Shown: positions 7,720-25,266 of the stretch, piece after piece
How the letters are laid out: every line of letters starts with the position of its first letter
Position numbering within the stretch: position 1 is the first letter of the stretch
From: a virus
IMG/VR virus record: IMGVR_UViG_3300047370_000404
Coordinates: 1-25,266 of that record
DNA: 25,266 nucleotides
Strand: one strand, 5' to 3'
Notes under the pieces: model-generated
What the model was told of the DNA's origin: nothing
Database searches by the model: none
Seen by the model: only the letters and a program-made list of their open reading frames with translations
Made by a program: the position numbers and the translations under genes

Positions 7720-8058
7720 ATGTTAGCTGCGGTAACTAATTTAGTTGTTTATCAAGGAAGTGATTTTCAAAATACCTTCTTTGTAACTAATGATAATGGA
7801 TCGCAGTTTAATTTGACTGGTTTCTCTGGAGAATGCTTAATTAAAAAGCATTATAGTAGTAGTTCTTCTACTACTATGCAGGTTAATATCAATCCTCCAG
7901 AAAATTCAGGGTCAGTTACCATAGCACTGACTAATTCTGTCACTGCTTCTATGACCCCTGGTAGATATGTTTATGATGTAGTTTTGACTGATTCTAGTGG
8001 GATTAAATCCAGAGTATTAGAAGGTATATTAACAGTAGTAGAAGGAGTAACACTCTAA
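7720..8058 (+). CDS. Small beta-sandwich-like virion protein, 112 aa
   Basis: This appears to be a single-domain, all-beta protein. It has an N-terminal VVYQGSDFQNTFFV, then an NLTGFSGECLIKKHYS segment, and a C-terminal MTPGRYVYDVVLTDSSG followed by a final strand. The pattern (plain tag, 'D-[LF]-TG-[YF]' turn, 'PGRYVYD' strand) recurs in small structural proteins of cyanomyoviruses and resembles the N-terminal domain of baseplate upper proteins (BppU-like). A role as a baseplate or fibre accessory subunit is inferred. A poly-Ser/Thr turn at residues 46-52 is encoded by a perfect inverted repeat at 7853-7877. The start at 7720 is preceded by AGGATAT and a late-promoter-like site. The stop overlaps the next start in TAATG, with the strong site AAGGAG (8042-8047) serving the downstream gene. 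Confidence 0.78.
   Translation: MLAAVTNLVVYQGSDFQNTFFVTNDNGSQFNLTGFSGECLIKKHYSSSSSTTMQVNINPPENSGSVTIALTNSVTASMTPGRYVYDVVLTDSSGIKSRVLEGILTVVEGVTL
7853..7877 (+). repeat. Perfect inverted repeat inside the 112-aa gene
   Basis: ATAGTAGTAG and CTACTACTAT form a perfect 10-bp stem around the 5-nt loop TTCTT. It encodes Ser-Ser-Ser-Ser-Ser-Thr-Thr. The stem arises because the first serines use AGT and the later residues use TCT and ACT. There is no following T-run, so it is not a typical intrinsic terminator. Confidence 0.7.
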
Positions 8059-18315: not shown

Positions 18316-19092
18316 ATGGCAACACAAAATTTACAATCATTTCAATCTGAGGGTGGATTCTCAGTTACCGAAGCAACTATTATTGATGCTGATAGGAATA
18401 TTATTGATGCTCATACTGTAAAAGTTTTAGATAATTCTAATAATAAAACTTTTAAGAAAGAGTATATGACTCATTTTACATCAACTGATGCAAATGCATC
18501 AGGTGAAATGCTTCCTACTCATGAAGTTGAAGCAGATAGGATTGTATTTTTAACTGGTTTTGTTCTTGCAACTTGGGTTGGATATCCAGTTGCTGTATTT
18601 AATGCAAATGCCAATAGTACTACTGTATCTTGTTCTCTTCCTGATCATGCTCTAACTACTGGTGATATCGTCACTGTTGATTTTGCAAACAATGCTAGAG
18701 ATAGTTTTAATGGATCTTTTGCTGTTACAGTAATAGATAATTCAAATTTTACATTTGATACATTATCACCTTTGGATATAAATGCTCCTGTTCTACAAGA
18801 AAATTTAGAAATTACATCTTATAGTTTAAATTGGGAGTTTGCCGTTAAAGTAGAATCTGCTGTTGTTAGTGATTCATCACAAGTACTTACAATTGCAGCA
18901 ATTGCTAATACTATTGTAAAAGATAATGTTCCTCCAGGTCATACTTGGTCGGTTGAACCAAGCGTAAATAATACAAGTAAAGTATTAACATTTACTCCTT
19001 CAGTTGCTTCTAACGCTGGTCTTGAATTGCGTGGTAGTGGTGTTAGATGGAGTAGTAAGGTAGAAATCGTCTACAGCGAAAGAAACTATTAA
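18316..19092 (+). CDS. Virion-type protein of unknown function, 258 aa
   Basis: The protein starts MATQNLQSFQSEGGFSVTEA and appears all-beta with no signal or membrane segment. Residues about 107-150 contain CSLPDHALTTGDIVTVDFAN and NFTFDTL, the 'H-x-L-x-x-GD-x-V ... F-x-F' module that recurs in phage fibre proteins and in the neighbouring 2549-residue protein near residues 2220-2290. The C-terminal half (LNWEFAVKVESAVVSD; GLELRGSGVRWSSKVEIVYS) looks like one further sandwich. It begins 4 nt after the previous stop with only a weak AGG at 18303-18305, so translational coupling is likely. A structural role is inferred from the operon; I do not recognise a named family. Confidence 0.78.
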   Translation: MATQNLQSFQSEGGFSVTEATIIDADRNIIDAHTVKVLDNSNNKTFKKEYMTHFTSTDANASGEMLPTHEVEADRIVFLTGFVLATWVGYPVAVFNANANSTTVSCSLPDHALTTGDIVTVDFANNARDSFNGSFAVTVIDNSNFTFDTLSPLDINAPVLQENLEITSYSLNWEFAVKVESAVVSDSSQVLTIAAIANTIVKDNVPPGHTWSVEPSVNNTSKVLTFTPSVASNAGLELRGSGVRWSSKVEIVYSERNY

Positions 19093-19133: not shown

Positions 19134-22100
19134 ATGGCTTTAGAATTTAATGCAGATCGCCAAGAGATTAGAGCTAATCAACTCAAACTTAAGAATGAAT
19201 CTAGTATCAGGTTAGATCTAGGTGCCGGTGCTGATGAGAAAGTTGCCATTTTTGGTGCTTTAACAAATGATGTTGATAAGTTAGTTCGTGTTGGTATTAA
19301 CACTGCAAATCCTCAATACGAATTAGATGTTGATGGTCAGATCAGAACGACCACATCTATTATTTCAGATACTGCAAGAATTCAGAACCTTGATATTGAC
19401 ACGATTGTCAATCCATCATTGAATCTTAAAGCACCTATATTAAATACGTTTGCTGATCCTGATACTGGCGAGGTCTTGTTCCCAAGATCTACTACTCCAT
19501 CATTTAGTGATGATAGTACGAATATTGCTACCACAAATTTTGTCTATAATATTGCCACTAATGACGTTGGTGGTCGTATCTATGTTTCTGCTCAGATTGG
19601 TTCTGATACATTTGATGGCAGATCTGCTACCAAACCTGTAAGAACTATTAAAAGAGCAACTCAACTTGCTGCTGAAACTACAGATAAAGAAACTTTAATC
19701 GTTGCAGGTGGAGATTATTTAGAAGATAACCCAATCTCCCTGCCAAACCTTTGTTCAGTTGTTGGTGATAACATTCGTCTGTGCATCATTCGACCTGCCA
19801 ATCCTGGCAAGCACATGTTCAAGTCGTCGAATGAGAACTATGTAACTGGTATCACATTTAGAGATCAAATTGACTCCGATAATGTAGCAATTAAAACTTG
19901 GTCTTTTGCTTATGTATTTGACGATAAGCAAAGATTCTTCTACCCCAAATCTTTAGGCGGACAATTTGGTAGAACCTTTAATCTTGGTCATAAAATTGCT
20001 GCTGCTCAAGAATGGGAACTGACGTTCTCATCTAATGGTGGTGGAATTTTACTTGTTCCAGGTCTTACATTAACTGCCCCTGGATCAGCAGGTACTGGTG
20101 TCATTACAAGTGTCGTTTTTGATGATAACACCAGCGATACTGGTAAACTAGTCATTAGTAGTATTACAGGTACTATTGAATCTACTGGTGGCGTTTATAC
20201 GTATGAAGCAAATAATCCTGTAGTTGTTTATAATGTAAGTGTCACTAGAGGGGTTCAGTTAACACCTGATGCTCAAGTTGTTAAGCATGTAACTACCCAT
20301 CCATCATATACAGTTACTTCAATTAAAACTGATGCTGCATATCCAAATGGATTAGTATTTACTACTGTCGATTATCATGAGTTTGAAGTTGGACAATATG
20401 TAGGTATTACTAATTTACCTTCAACTGGTCTATATGCAGATTTAGATAGGTACAATGGTCGTCAATATATTTCACATAGAATTGAAACTGCAGATGGTTT
20501 CAGTAAGAAGTTTGTAGTATATAAGGATACTCCTACAGATCTTGCAGCACTTGGAGCACCTGGTGGTGAATATGGTGTTTCTGCTTTTGGTGTTCTTGTA
20601 GAATCGGATGATCATTATGTTGTATTCTCACTTGACAACTCACCACGTAAGTTTGATGAATCTATAAAGAGTCCAAACAGATTCCTTGATGCAGTTGATT
20701 TGATTGGTAGGAATGAACTTACCATTTCAAAAGAAGCAGTAAGAAGAGTTGAAGAAGAGTATCCAACTTTAATAATTCCAGATAGTGCTCAGTGTGAAAC
20801 TGACATTAAGCACATCATGAATGCTATTAATTATGACCTTACTTGGGGTGGTAATGCAGCAACTCAAGAAGCAGCAGAAAATTACTTTACTTCTGGTGCA
20901 TTAAATCATATTTCAGATCAACTAAAAGAAACTTCTTACGCATTTGAGCAAGCAAGAGACCTGTCTATTCAGGCAATGCGTAACCAGTTGAACACTGTAA
21001 GTACAAGTTCAACTGCTGCAATTACTAGACCAGCTGGTTATACTGGTCAATATAGATCTGTTATTTGGGATAACGAAAAGTTTGTTGCTGTAGGTGATGA
21101 TGGTGCAATCCATACTTCTACAGACGGAACTACTTGGGTAGCACAAACTACTGGTACAACAGAACAACTTAATGATATTAGATGGAATAAATGGGCAGTT
21201 GGTGAAAGAGGAATTCCTGAGTACGTTGTTGTTGGTAATAATGGGACAATTCTCTGGTCAAATAATGCAGAAACTTGGTATAGTATAACCTCTGGAACTT
21301 CAAGGGATTTAAAGGCAATTGCATATAACGGAACAACATATGTTGCTGTCGGTACATTAGGAACTGCTGTATATTCAGATAATGTTAAGGCATGGAATAC
21401 TGGAACTACAGGAACAACTCGCCCTCTTAATGATCTAATTTATAATGACGATTGCGACAAGTTTGTTGCTGTCGGTGGTGGTGGTAAAATTATTATCTCT
21501 TCTGATGGTAATACTTGGACCGAACAAGAAAGTGGTACAGGTACAGAACTTTTTGCCATCTCTTGGTCAGAAGGTAGAATGGTTGTTACTGGCGTAAATG
21601 CCACTGTTGTTATCAGTGATGACAATGGATTAACTTGGGAAACTAATCTTATTAATGGTAATAGTCCTGACAACCCACAAAGTAATAAAGATGCAGATGC
21701 TGCTGATCTAATTCTTGCTAACCAAGCACTTATTGCTAACATTGCTGTTGGCAAGATGCTTGATAACAATAGTGGATACACTATCCCTACAGGTAATCAA
21801 GCATGTAAGGATGACATCATGGCATTTATTGGTGCTATGGTCATCAACCTTGAGTTTGGTGGTAATGATGAAGTGTATGACGCTGCTAATCTGTATGTAA
21901 CAGGTTCTCATGTACAAGGTGAAGAGGATGAATCTGTAGAAGCATTTAACTATGCTAGAGATCTCTGTATTGAGGCGATGCGTAATGATGCATTTGATGC
22001 CGGGGATATGACCGATCATGCAGATGGTCTTACTCAATATATTGATACCTCAGTAACTACAGATACTGGATCTCCTGCTTGTGCAACTCAGGCATCAGCG

Positions 22101-25100
22101 ATCACAACGTTCTTTGGTATTCTAACCACCGCAATCGGCGCTACAGGCGCTCCTGGGTCCCTCTCAGGGACAACTAGGAACCCATTAGCAACTGAAGGAT
22201 TTACTGGTCAAGCAAACAGATACTGGGATGCTTCTGATTTAATCTTAGAAAATAAGAAAGTAATTGCTGCTCAATCAGTATTTGAATATACTACTACAAA
22301 TGGATTTACAATACCAGGTGCTGGTCCAACTGGAAATCAAAATTGTGTTGATGACGTTGTAGATATTCTTGAAGCAATGGCACATGACTTACGTCATGGT
22401 GGTAACGCAAAAACATATGATGCTGCCAGTTATTACGTAGGCACATCTCATGTTGATGGAGAAGAAGCAGAAACTGTTGCTATCATCAACATTGCAAGAG
22501 ATTTGGCGATTACCGCAATGCGTAATCAATCTCTTACTCTTTCATATTTACTGAACAATCTCTTTACAGTAACATTAGATACTGATTTTTACGGTGCAAT
22601 TACTCAATTCACTAAATCTGATATCACTATTGATGGTGCATCTACTGCAAGATGTTCAAACGTAGCATCTGCAATTACAACTCTGACATCTATTGTTACT
22701 ACTGCAGTAACTAATGACAATTTAAACCACGCTGTACAAACAGTTCCAACTGGCACACTTGCCAATAATTATTTTGGTGGATTGTTCCATGATGGTAATA
22801 AGTTCTGGGTACTTTCTGAAGCTGCTAGCACATGTTATGTTCACACTTCTAGCGATAGAGGAAGAACTTGGAAGGAAGAATATACTGGTGCTGCTGCTGC
22901 AGACGGATTGAATACAATTGCATTTAGTTATGATGTTGCTGTTGGACTTGGTGCCAATGGAAGAGATATTGCATTTAATGGTACTGAGAGTGAAATTGCT
23001 TTTTCAATTTCCAATACGTATCCTGTATTCCAGGATGAGACAATCTCTAATACATATGATTCCAATAGATCGTTTGCTTGTGACAATGTATCATCGTCTA
23101 TCTTTACGCTATGGGACATTGTTATTGAAAAAATTAATCAGAGACCTGTCCCTGCAATTACATATGCGTCTTCATATTTTACTGACAGTAATAACACCTT
23201 CTTCAATGTAGGTCACTCATGGGATGATCTTCCTATTATTGAAGTTTCACCATACATCTTTAACTCTTCTGTTATTTCATTCCTTGGTGGTAATGGTTGT
23301 GAGATTGATGGATCTAAAGTTGCAACTCCAAACGTTAGGAGACCTGGACTACCTCCACAAGGTAAGTCGATGGTTGCTGCAGCATTCACGATCATCTCTT
23401 TCGGTGGTATAGGTTATAGTGTTATCAATGATGGATATACTCAACTAGTTTCAGTTTTCTGTATCTTCACGCAAGATGGTGCGGTTGTAGAAACTGGTGG
23501 TTATGCGTCACTAACAAACTCTGCATCCAACTTTGGTACATTTGCACTTAGAGCAAATGGCGTAAGAGAAGAAGCATATTCATTCGATAAAGGTGTCATT
23601 AGTAATATTACCTTTACTGATATTGGCGTACCTAAACTACTTGTTGATGGTCTTGGAGCACCTCCACTTGAGCACTACATTCTTGCACCTCAGGGATTTG
23701 AATTAGAAATTCAAGGCGGTCAAAATCCTCGCTACTTTATTGAAAATACTATTTCTGCTACTCCTGTTAAACCAATTCAAGCAGAAATTCAAGCAAACCT
23801 TGCTATGAGGGTTAGAGGTAACTATAACCGTTACACTGATTCATCAGTTCTTCTTGAAAATAATGCTCGTTATATTGCAGAAGAAGCATACTTCTCAACT
23901 AGTGCAATATCTTCAAATGTATTTGATCAAAATAGAAACAAATGTATTCGTGACGTAGAAGAAATTGTCAAGGCATGGGCACAGGATATTAAATTTGACT
24001 CAAATGATTCTACCTGGGATGCTGCTAAACTTTACACTGATGGAACTTCAATCCAACATGTTTCTGGATATGAATTAGCGACTAAGGAAGTTGTTGATGC
24101 TGCAACTATTCTTGCTAAGAGAGCAATTAATAATTTGCTTCAAAAGAAAGGTGAAACACAACTTACAGCAGATTATTATGTTGCTAGTTGGACAGATGAA
24201 ATTCCATATGTAGATTCGACAATCACTCATGATGTCTCATCTGATCCTAATTATTCAATTACTGATTGTGCTAATGTCCAATCTGCAATCCAAGTACTTA
24301 GTGATCTCTTTGATGAGATTATTGACAATCCAACCACTACCAGTCCACTTCCAAGTACGGCAGAAAGAGTTGATGGGTTCTTTACCATTAATCAATTTAA
24401 TAAAGATAAACTTATTGATCACCCAATTGATTTACAGAGACCTTCTATCTGTAACTCTTCTTCACATACGTGGGAATTTGCGGGGTCAGGAAATGACTAT
24501 AATGCCCTTCCACAGAATGGAGGCACTAAAGGTTCAAGTGAAACTAAAGATTTTGAACAAGTATCTCAACAGAACGGTAGAGTTTATGCCTCAGGTACTG
24601 ACGAATTAGGCGACTTTAAGATCGGTTATTTCGCTAACGTTGAAAACAGAACTGGTAATATTACCTTTGGTGGTACGGTTACAATTTCTGAAGTTGAATT
24701 CCTTAAGATTAAGGGTAACAATGTTGTTGTTACTGGATTCTCGCCAGACAATACTTTAGGTGCTCTAGAACTTGGTGGTCCTGGTGCATCCGATTCATTA
24801 CTGTCAACACAAAAAGCAGTTAAAGATTACATCTCTAACCAGTTAGGTTTGTATATTGGTCGTACATATTCAACCGTTCCTACTCCTAATGCACTAGTCC
24901 AGTTGGATGGATCTGGTAGGATTAACATTGATCAACTACCAGCACTGAGACCATTTAATATCTTTACAGTTGCTGATCAACCTGCACGTGTTGCTCTTGA
25001 AGGTCCTCTTGCAGGTGACATTGCGATTCAACAAGATACTACAATTTCATATATTCTAAACAATGATCTTGATAGTCAAATCTTTGAATTTATTCCTACT

Positions 25101-25266
25101 TCTGGATACTTGTTTAGTGCAGGTGATATCGTCACTACATCTCCAGGAAATAGTCAGAACCAAGTTCTATCATATTCTGAAGGTTTAGTCAAGCAATTTA
25201 TTATTAACAATGGTGGTACTGGATATCTCAATGGTGATACTGTAACAATTAGTGCTCCATCAGGTG
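19134..25266 (+). CDS. Giant multidomain fibre/baseplate-peripheral protein (3' end beyond window)
   Basis: The frame is open from ATG 19134 to the window end, 2044 codons with no stop. Residues approximate. 1-70: fibre linker with VGINTANPQYELDVDG. About 120-137: DDSTNIATTNFVYN, a fibre repeat motif. 145-260: pectin-lyase-like beta-helix start (RIYVSAQIGSDTFDG; TLIVAGGDYLEDNPI). 525-619, 855-952, 1026-1132 and 1575-1669: four copies of an alpha-helical repeat. 635-841: five Asp-box propeller blades. 1213-1283: one or two further blades. 1318-1572: the beta-helix resumes (SPYIFNSSVISF; KSMVAAAFTIISFGGIGYSV). 1770-1850: conserved virion segment (SSHTWEFAGSGNDYNALPQN; GRVYASGTDELGDFKIG). About 1890: STQKAVKDYISNQLG. 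The visible end is a GTGY/GD repeat. Similar mosaics occur in cyanomyovirus tail proteins. Host binding is inferred. It may have its own late promoter. Confidence 0.88.
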   Translation, partial: MALEFNADRQEIRANQLKLKNESSIRLDLGAGADEKVAIFGALTNDVDKLVRVGINTANPQYELDVDGQIRTTTSIISDTARIQNLDIDTIVNPSLNLKAPILNTFADPDTGEVLFPRSTTPSFSDDSTNIATTNFVYNIATNDVGGRIYVSAQIGSDTFDGRSATKPVRTIKRATQLAAETTDKETLIVAGGDYLEDNPISLPNLCSVVGDNIRLCIIRPANPGKHMFKSSNENYVTGITFRDQIDSDNVAIKTWSFAYVFDDKQRFFYPKSLGGQFGRTFNLGHKIAAAQEWELTFSSNGGGILLVPGLTLTAPGSAGTGVITSVVFDDNTSDTGKLVISSITGTIESTGGVYTYEANNPVVVYNVSVTRGVQLTPDAQVVKHVTTHPSYTVTSIKTDAAYPNGLVFTTVDYHEFEVGQYVGITNLPSTGLYADLDRYNGRQYISHRIETADGFSKKFVVYKDTPTDLAALGAPGGEYGVSAFGVLVESDDHYVVFSLDNSPRKFDESIKSPNRFLDAVDLIGRNELTISKEAVRRVEEEYPTLIIPDSAQCETDIKHIMNAINYDLTWGGNAATQEAAENYFTSGALNHISDQLKETSYAFEQARDLSIQAMRNQLNTVSTSSTAAITRPAGYTGQYRSVIWDNEKFVAVGDDGAIHTSTDGTTWVAQTTGTTEQLNDIRWNKWAVGERGIPEYVVVGNNGTILWSNNAETWYSITSGTSRDLKAIAYNGTTYVAVGTLGTAVYSDNVKAWNTGTTGTTRPLNDLIYNDDCDKFVAVGGGGKIIISSDGNTWTEQESGTGTELFAISWSEGRMVVTGVNATVVISDDNGLTWETNLINGNSPDNPQSNKDADAADLILANQALIANIAVGKMLDNNSGYTIPTGNQACKDDIMAFIGAMVINLEFGGNDEVYDAANLYVTGSHVQGEEDESVEAFNYARDLCIEAMRNDAFDAGDMTDHADGLTQYIDTSVTTDTGSPACATQASAITTFFGILTTAIGATGAPGSLSGTTRNPLATEGFTGQANRYWDASDLILENKKVIAAQSVFEYTTTNGFTIPGAGPTGNQNCVDDVVDILEAMAHDLRHGGNAKTYDAASYYVGTSHVDGEEAETVAIINIARDLAITAMRNQSLTLSYLLNNLFTVTLDTDFYGAITQFTKSDITIDGASTARCSNVASAITTLTSIVTTAVTNDNLNHAVQTVPTGTLANNYFGGLFHDGNKFWVLSEAASTCYVHTSSDRGRTWKEEYTGAAAADGLNTIAFSYDVAVGLGANGRDIAFNGTESEIAFSISNTYPVFQDETISNTYDSNRSFACDNVSSSIFTLWDIVIEKINQRPVPAITYASSYFTDSNNTFFNVGHSWDDLPIIEVSPYIFNSSVISFLGGNGCEIDGSKVATPNVRRPGLPPQGKSMVAAAFTIISFGGIGYSVINDGYTQLVSVFCIFTQDGAVVETGGYASLTNSASNFGTFALRANGVREEAYSFDKGVISNITFTDIGVPKLLVDGLGAPPLEHYILAPQGFELEIQGGQNPRYFIENTISATPVKPIQAEIQANLAMRVRGNYNRYTDSSVLLENNARYIAEEAYFSTSAISSNVFDQNRNKCIRDVEEIVKAWAQDIKFDSNDSTWDAAKLYTDGTSIQHVSGYELATKEVVDAATILAKRAINNLLQKKGETQLTADYYVASWTDEIPYVDSTITHDVSSDPNYSITDCANVQSAIQVLSDLFDEIIDNPTTTSPLPSTAERVDGFFTINQFNKDKLIDHPIDLQRPSICNSSSHTWEFAGSGNDYNALPQNGGTKGSSETKDFEQVSQQNGRVYASGTDELGDFKIGYFANVENRTGNITFGGTVTISEVEFLKIKGNNVVVTGFSPDNTLGALELGGPGASDSLLSTQKAVKDYISNQLGLYIGRTYSTVPTPNALVQLDGSGRINIDQLPALRPFNIFTVADQPARVALEGPLAGDIAIQQDTTISYILNNDLDSQIFEFIPTSGYLFSAGDIVTTSPGNSQNQVLSYSEGLVKQFIINNGGTGYLNGDTVTISAPSG
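20706..20990 (+). repeat. Alpha-helical repeat copy 1 (C-x2-D / GGN / AMRN)
   Basis: About 95 residues with the order C-x2-D-x-K-H-I, NYDLTWGGN, EAAENYFTSG, then ARDLSIQAMRNQ. Helix-forming residues dominate, in contrast to the beta-rich flanks. It lies just before the propeller blades. Confidence 0.75.
21036..21656 (+). other. Asp-box (BNR-like) propeller blades 1-5
   Basis: Five consecutive repeats of about 40 residues: a strand ending in F/Y-V-[AV]-V-G, then GxI/V, then an Asp-box turn. Turns are STDGTTW, SNNAETW, SDNVKAW, SSDGNTW and SDDNGLTW; the fifth fits the canonical S-x-D-x-G-x-T-W, the others are shortened or degenerate. This resembles sialidase and Ycf48-type propellers. The sialidase catalytic residues were not identified, so binding rather than hydrolysis is more likely. 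Confidence 0.8.
21696..21990 (+). repeat. Alpha-helical repeat copy 2
   Basis: DAADLILANQALIA begins the copy, then C-x2-D-DIMAFIGAM, NLEFGGNDEVYDAANLYVTG and ARDLCIEAMRND. It is closely related to copy 3, with which it shares DLIL, the GGN turn, YDAA, GSH/TSH-V-x-GEE and AMRN. Confidence 0.8.
22209..22530 (+). repeat. Alpha-helical repeat copy 3
   Basis: WDASDLILENKKVIAAQ begins the copy, then C-VDDVVDILEAMAHDLRHGGN, TYDAASYYVGTSHVDGEEAE and ARDLAITAMRNQ. It adjoins the next propeller blade (22770-22980). Confidence 0.8.
22770..22980 (+). other. Further Asp-box blade(s) after helical repeats
   Basis: GGLFHDGNKFWVLSEA leads to a canonical Asp-box SSDRGRTW, followed by a half blade (NTIAFSYDVAVGLGANG). 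The strand pattern matches blades 1-5, from which it is separated by about 370 residues of helical repeats and linker. Confidence 0.7.
23856..24140 (+). repeat. Alpha-helical repeat copy 4 (diverged)
   Basis: NARYIAEEAYFSTSA begins the copy, then KC-IRDVEEIVKAWAQDIKF, with DSND in place of the GGN turn, WDAAKLYTDG, and a final helix ATILAKRAINNLL in place of the ARD...AMRN end. It follows the beta-helix rather than the propeller. Confidence 0.7.

Follow-up and report, generated by a model that had tools for sequence, protein, structure and literature searches.

Asp-box propellers interrupted by another domain are a described type: in the type 2 organisation a domain is inserted into the blade series and yet one propeller is formed, as exemplified by the V. 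cholerae sialidase (Quistgaard and Thirup 2009, PMC2716378). We analysed the 25,266-base virus record IMGVR_UViG_3300047370_000404 (the window, that is, the whole stretch of DNA), which contains a giant tail-fibre open reading frame (ORF) at 19134..25266 with a broken series of Asp-box blades. The reading that we consider probable, at about 0.77, is a nested-domain tail fibre, in which a seven-bladed Asp-box propeller interrupts one helical unit and is in turn interrupted by others, with a putative role as an adhesin.

The fibre gene and its Asp-box blades

The 19134 ORF lies on the plus strand, as do all of its features given below. It encodes at least 2,044 aa and is open at the record end; its full-length relatives (L005-L008) are ~3,400 aa long. 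It matched the PHROG tail fiber protein family with an E value of 0, and a tblastn search with it hit 377 phage records, almost all of them from cyanophages, in tail-fibre or structural proteins. The source of this tail-fibre protein is a T4-like marine cyanophage. At the other end of the window, an ORF at 1-1242, open at the record start, matches the T4 Gp8 baseplate wedge protein (Pfam Phage-Gp8), indicating that the record belongs to a baseplate and fibre gene cluster, and further ORFs match baseplate wedge families. A short ORF (7720-8058) flanked by large structural genes matches the PHROG family "L-shaped tail fiber protein assembly" and has a weak match to LtfC. A small ORF upstream of the fibre (18316-19092) has a weak match, below the cut-off, to the phage endosialidase beta-barrel domain (E 2e-4). 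Three metagenome contigs, L045, L046 and L047 (3300020109, 3300020196 and 3300020197), were identical over the compared locus.

Ahead of the inserted domains, the fibre scaffold at 19554..19934 has a sequence pattern that is conserved in cultured cyanophages and looks like a parallel beta-helix. The scaffold resumes at 23166..23633 (DDLPIIEVSPYIFNSSVISFLGG...), at a junction shared with cultured phages, and its fold there is likewise a predicted one.

The hallmark of Asp-box (BNR) beta-propellers is an S-x-D-x-G-x-T-W motif repeated once per blade. Six Asp-box-like motifs are found in the 19134 ORF, at residues 662 (STDGTTW), 709 (SNNAETW), 748 (SDNVKAW), 789 (SSDGNTW), 828 (SDDNGLTW) and 1239 (SSDRGRTW), with degenerate forms in blades 2 and 3. 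A profile built from the first five blades recovered each of them with E values of 1e-16 to 1e-22, namely blade 1 at 21051..21167 (2e-22), blade 2 at 21168..21308 (1e-18), blade 3 at 21309..21425 (2e-16), blade 4 at 21426..21548 (4e-19) and blade 5 at 21549..21665 (2e-16). On the same profile the motif of blade 6 (22770..22907) scored 13.6 bits, compared with a best score of 6.3 in 1,000 shuffles of its segment. The original prediction of five Asp-box blades, later followed by a sixth with SSDRGRTW, is thus borne out by both the motifs and the profile.

Blade 7 (22908..22991) has no Asp-box and on its own reached a non-significant 2 bits on the blade profile; it was therefore judged by its Pfam match and by structure models. 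The Pfam family PSII_BNR (PF14870) matches 22710-22958, corresponding to the last two blades, up to near the end of the profile (positions 216-296 of 303, E 3.8e-4), and the last-two-blade segment in the record of L025 matches it with E 4.9e-7. In addition, three strands of blade 7 are present in both AlphaFold2 models described below, and what had been read as a half blade after blade 6 is taken here as a degenerate seventh blade. The five-blade segment alone passed the curated PF14870 cut-off of 27 with 36.9 bits, and the match in the record-wide scan was below that cut-off. A phmmer search of the segment against the PDB gave no match. Together with a nine-residue N-terminal strand just before blade 1 (20991..21017), which is a strand in both models, the ring elements span 20991-22991, slightly wider than the 21036-22980 proposed from the first reading.

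Helical units within and around the propeller

The helical unit begins with a part named AB and ends with a helix named C; four copies are present in the 19134 ORF. Two of them lie between blades 5 and 6, where about 370 residues with two helical repeats had been predicted; the insert is in fact 368 aa long (residues 845-1212), and HMM searches placed the two units at residues 851-1002 and 1028-1194. Specifically, unit 2 occupies 21684..22139 (AB 21684-21989, C 22029-22139; E 1e-41 and 2e-16) and unit 3 occupies 22215..22715 (AB 22215-22529, C 22599-22715; E 1e-40 and 9e-17). Unit 4, at 23826..24329 (E 2e-38 and 2e-15), is outside the propeller.

The remaining copy, unit 1, is split. Its first part, AB1 (20676..20987, residues 515-618, E 3e-43, with the conserved Cys554), lies immediately ahead of blade 1, and its closing helix, C1 (23019..23141, residues 1296-1336, with the conserved Cys1316), directly follows blade 7. 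The order along the ORF is AB1, blades 1-5, AB2-C2, AB3-C3, blades 6-7 and C1, which has the form of nested brackets. C1 was recovered by an HMM stripped of all C1 sequences (E 2e-6), and an HMM made from propeller-free cultured phages only gave it 11.8 bits, compared with 3.7 for the best of 200 shuffles. At the level of sequence, the propeller is nested inside a copy of the helical unit that it also carries, an outer layer that the original prediction overlooked.

In cultured phages without the propeller, AB and C are adjacent, and the first unit of S-PM2 is uninterrupted. S-CAM4 and Sf-CH1b carry a short beta-repeat module at the AB|C point. Given inserts at this point in several phages, the AB|C junction accepts insertions, the propeller being one of them. 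Note that the propeller is missing from this point in all 15 cultured cyanophage records that were examined closely. A beta-repeat array (TYDP.TG....T...HGL......I....F.C..D......YPR) of ~100 to 1,000 residues was also seen within helical units, where it occupies two distinct sites, in cultured as well as uncultured phages (L025:2519-5371, L012, L073, L074 and L076).

A conserved Cys is found once in each AB (C..D) and once in each C helix (C.NV), in cultured phages as well, residues 554 and 1316 being one such pair. From this pattern, a contact or disulfide between the AB and C cysteines is possible, with exceptions. In line with pairing, a unit of S-SCSM2R without the AB Cys also has no Cys in the next 85 residues, but unit 1 of DSL-LC03 has the AB Cys and no detectable C element, so that strict pairing was not borne out.

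The insert in the blade 5-6 loop differs in length among natural relatives. Two helical units are found between blades 5 and 6 in a first group (the analysed protein, L004-L008 and L018) and exactly one in a second (L019, L020, L021, L023 and L024), from which unit 2 is exactly absent, leaving a clean gap in the alignment. In a third group (L025-L028), there is one helical unit, itself opened by a ~1,000-residue array of beta repeats. At one and the same point the insert thus measures ~190, ~370 or ~1,150 residues, and in every group it is followed by blades 6 and 7 and then by helix C1. Two alignment searches returned mostly the same contigs plus a few fragments, and none of the relatives found has an unbroken propeller at this site. 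Because insert lengths differ so greatly among relatives, this loop of the propeller can apparently accommodate large cargo, and the natural series offers a ready test of that tolerance.

The sequence relatives of the helical unit hint at a light-harvesting family. When helical-unit profiles were compared with the PDB, phycobiliproteins were nearly the sole relatives (best E 1.7e-4, 29 units), and with full-unit profiles all 44 matches below E 0.1 were phycobiliproteins; the match covers ~56 residues around the bilin-site Cys. The Pfam family PF00502 (Phycobilisome protein) was found in 19 of 20 cyanophage records, in 10 of them above the curated cut-off, compared with two matches among 14 control genomes, Synechococcus elongatus being one of the two, and a single control above the cut-off. 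Unit 1 passed the cut-off of 22.2 with 24.6 bits. When eight units were scanned singly against PF00502, one matched and the other seven gave nothing at E 1. Of the bilin-site motif C-x-R-D, the Cys and Asp are nearly invariant in the helical units, and the Arg is absent from units 1-3 of the 19134 ORF. Phycobiliprotein-like units were noted at 20676-20987, 21684-21989, 22215-22529 and 23826-24137, and also in L010, L012, L013 and L075. We regard the resemblance across cyanophages as a lead, short of shown homology. A more far-reaching proposal, which we hold only tentatively and rate below even odds, is that the units derive from the host phycobiliprotein family; the fibres would then be built of repeated light-harvesting-type globin domains that keep the bilin-site Cys and Asp, with adhesin modules inserted between the last two helices.

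Predicted role and closure of the ring

In the nested-domain reading, a helical unit of the fibre would be split between AB and C by the seven-bladed propeller, which in turn would be opened in its blade 5-6 loop by further copies of the helical unit. The ring would close once blades 6 and 7 arrive, the strand before blade 1 serving as the outer strand of blade 7. The propeller would be displayed on the fibre as a putative adhesin head, its conserved face seated on helical unit 1 and its variable face, formed by loops B-C and D-A and bearing the insert, turned toward the host envelope as the predicted contact. The inserted units may act as spacers or extra contacts whose gain or loss would leave the fibre core intact.

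Loop variability differs between the two faces. The family mean of loop entropy was 1.58 bits for the B-C/D-A face, compared with 0.63 bits for the A-B/C-D face (p 5e-5, permutation of loops), and the insert sits in a D-A loop, that is, on the variable face. An adhesin head with the variable face outward is the likely role. Note that high variability of the B-C loop is general to Asp-box blades (PMC2716378), so that it is weak evidence for binding. The propeller and its helical inserts could instead be structural spacers or attachment parts that bind no host receptor, a reading to which we give substantial weight, although less than an even chance. It draws on the indirect nature of all the functional evidence, on the position of the domain a long way from the C terminus, a common place for receptor tips, and on the lack of the propeller in most cultured relatives. 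Against it stand the strong variability of one face and the patchy presence of the domain among phages, a pattern that host-range modules would be expected to show.

Closure of the ring was approached with structure models. AlphaFold2 was run on residues 500-1345 of the 19134 ORF with 20 sequences, and the resulting model (pLDDT 72, pTM 0.53) contains the strands of blade 6, three strands of blade 7 and the nine-residue strand before blade 1. Foldseek aligned about five blades of it (~226 columns) to seven-bladed propellers with a TM of 0.60 and an rmsd of 3.4, and did not bridge the 370-residue gap. Because the alignment stopped at this insert, we modelled L021, a natural homologue that is 65% identical and has a shorter insert. 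The L021 model (pLDDT 78, pTM 0.69) has the same strand pattern, and Foldseek aligned both of its blade sets, across the insert, to single uninterrupted propellers: the viral BFVD entry A0A6J5SXG5 (299 aa; TM 0.79, rmsd 3.7 A, 481 columns), M1PQ47 (315 aa; TM 0.78) and the WD40 propeller of PDB 5yzv (288 aa; TM 0.74 over 481 columns). The 481 aligned columns correspond to the length of the target with approximately that of the insert added. Since five perfect blades of seven would give a TM of at most ~0.71, blades 6 and 7 belong to the ring in the L021 model.

Four-strand blades in a closed ring are thus seen in the L021 model, and the model of the 19134 protein has the strands with about five blades matched. 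That blades 1-5 and 6-7 share one ring is supported by the homologue's model and, through homology, would apply to the 19134 protein. The suggestion that the helical pair is a large insertion in one loop of a single propeller gains support from the TM values of 0.74-0.79 and from the insert-length series; the monomer prediction that had been proposed as its check fell short for the 19134 protein, with about five blades matched in its model, and the L021 model closes one ring. In both models blade 7 has three strands and one long strand is left unassigned, from which we infer that the strand before blade 1 may be the outer strand of blade 7 in a velcro closure. A chain that enters and leaves at the C-D hairpin of blade 7 would explain the missing Asp-box of that blade.

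Phage fibres are usually trimers. This habit, together with inserts of up to ~1,150 residues, would permit a domain swap, with blades 6-7 of one chain closing the ring of an adjacent one; we consider the swap improbable, as the single-chain L021 model already closes and as the propeller is directly flanked by AB1 and C1, which belong to the same helical unit, an arrangement that favours closure within the chain. Least probable of all is a type 4 organisation with two separate structures, blades 1-5 as a five-bladed ring of their own and blades 6-7 as a separate small sheet domain: the mainly five-blade Foldseek alignment of the 19134 protein model and the degeneracy of blade 7 speak for it, but it is seven-bladed propellers that the five-blade arc matches, the top 50 of neither PDB search included a recognisable closed five-bladed propeller, and the two parts of L021 fall together on one intact propeller.

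If the single nested ring is correct, a very large phage adhesin would grow by modules inserted in modules at a few fixed points, so that the order along the chain hides the true domain pairs. Reading such proteins from left to right would miscount nested whole domains as two broken ones. The blade 5-6 loop would mark an exchange site of fibre modules in marine cyanophages.

Comparison with known propellers and phage fibres

In the Foldseek searches, the solved structures that came closest include YCF48 and designed seven-bladed propellers. YCF48 (PSII_BNR, PF14870; PDB 2xbg and 5ojr) is, like the predicted ring, a seven-bladed Asp-box propeller and is among the top PDB fold matches. In contrast to the cyanophage domain, which belongs to a tail fibre and carries a 368-aa insert, it is an uninterrupted propeller and a photosystem II assembly factor. 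The giant tail-fibre context and the insert count against membership as a photosystem factor. A sialidase (GH33) reading was also rejected, as there is no F/Y-R-I-P motif in residues 600-1345.

Among phages, the 19134 protein shares its scaffold junctions and its helical AB-C units with fibres of Kyanoviridae, including S-PM2 (S-PM2d088), Syn1_101, S-RSM4 146 and S-CAM4. Phage-borne Asp-box propellers are also found in S-SSM7 gp7, the tail fiber of Caulobacter phage KSC and the BNR protein of S-CBWM1; in these, however, the propeller is in another protein or position, and identity is <40%. In the literature (open-licence papers), no description of this arrangement in cyanophages was found.

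The arrangement had been called unusual for a phage adhesin, which is a fair description, with the qualification that interrupted single Asp-box propellers are already a described type (PMC2716378). As in the type 2 example, the V. cholerae sialidase, a series of Asp-box blades is broken by a domain and, judging from homology to the L021 model, probably still forms one ring. Unlike in that example, the insert consists of one or more helical units and its length is very different among relatives, and the propeller is nested in a copy of the helical unit that it carries. Domain insertion into an Asp-box propeller is therefore known, and the self-nesting and the insert-length series are what is new here.
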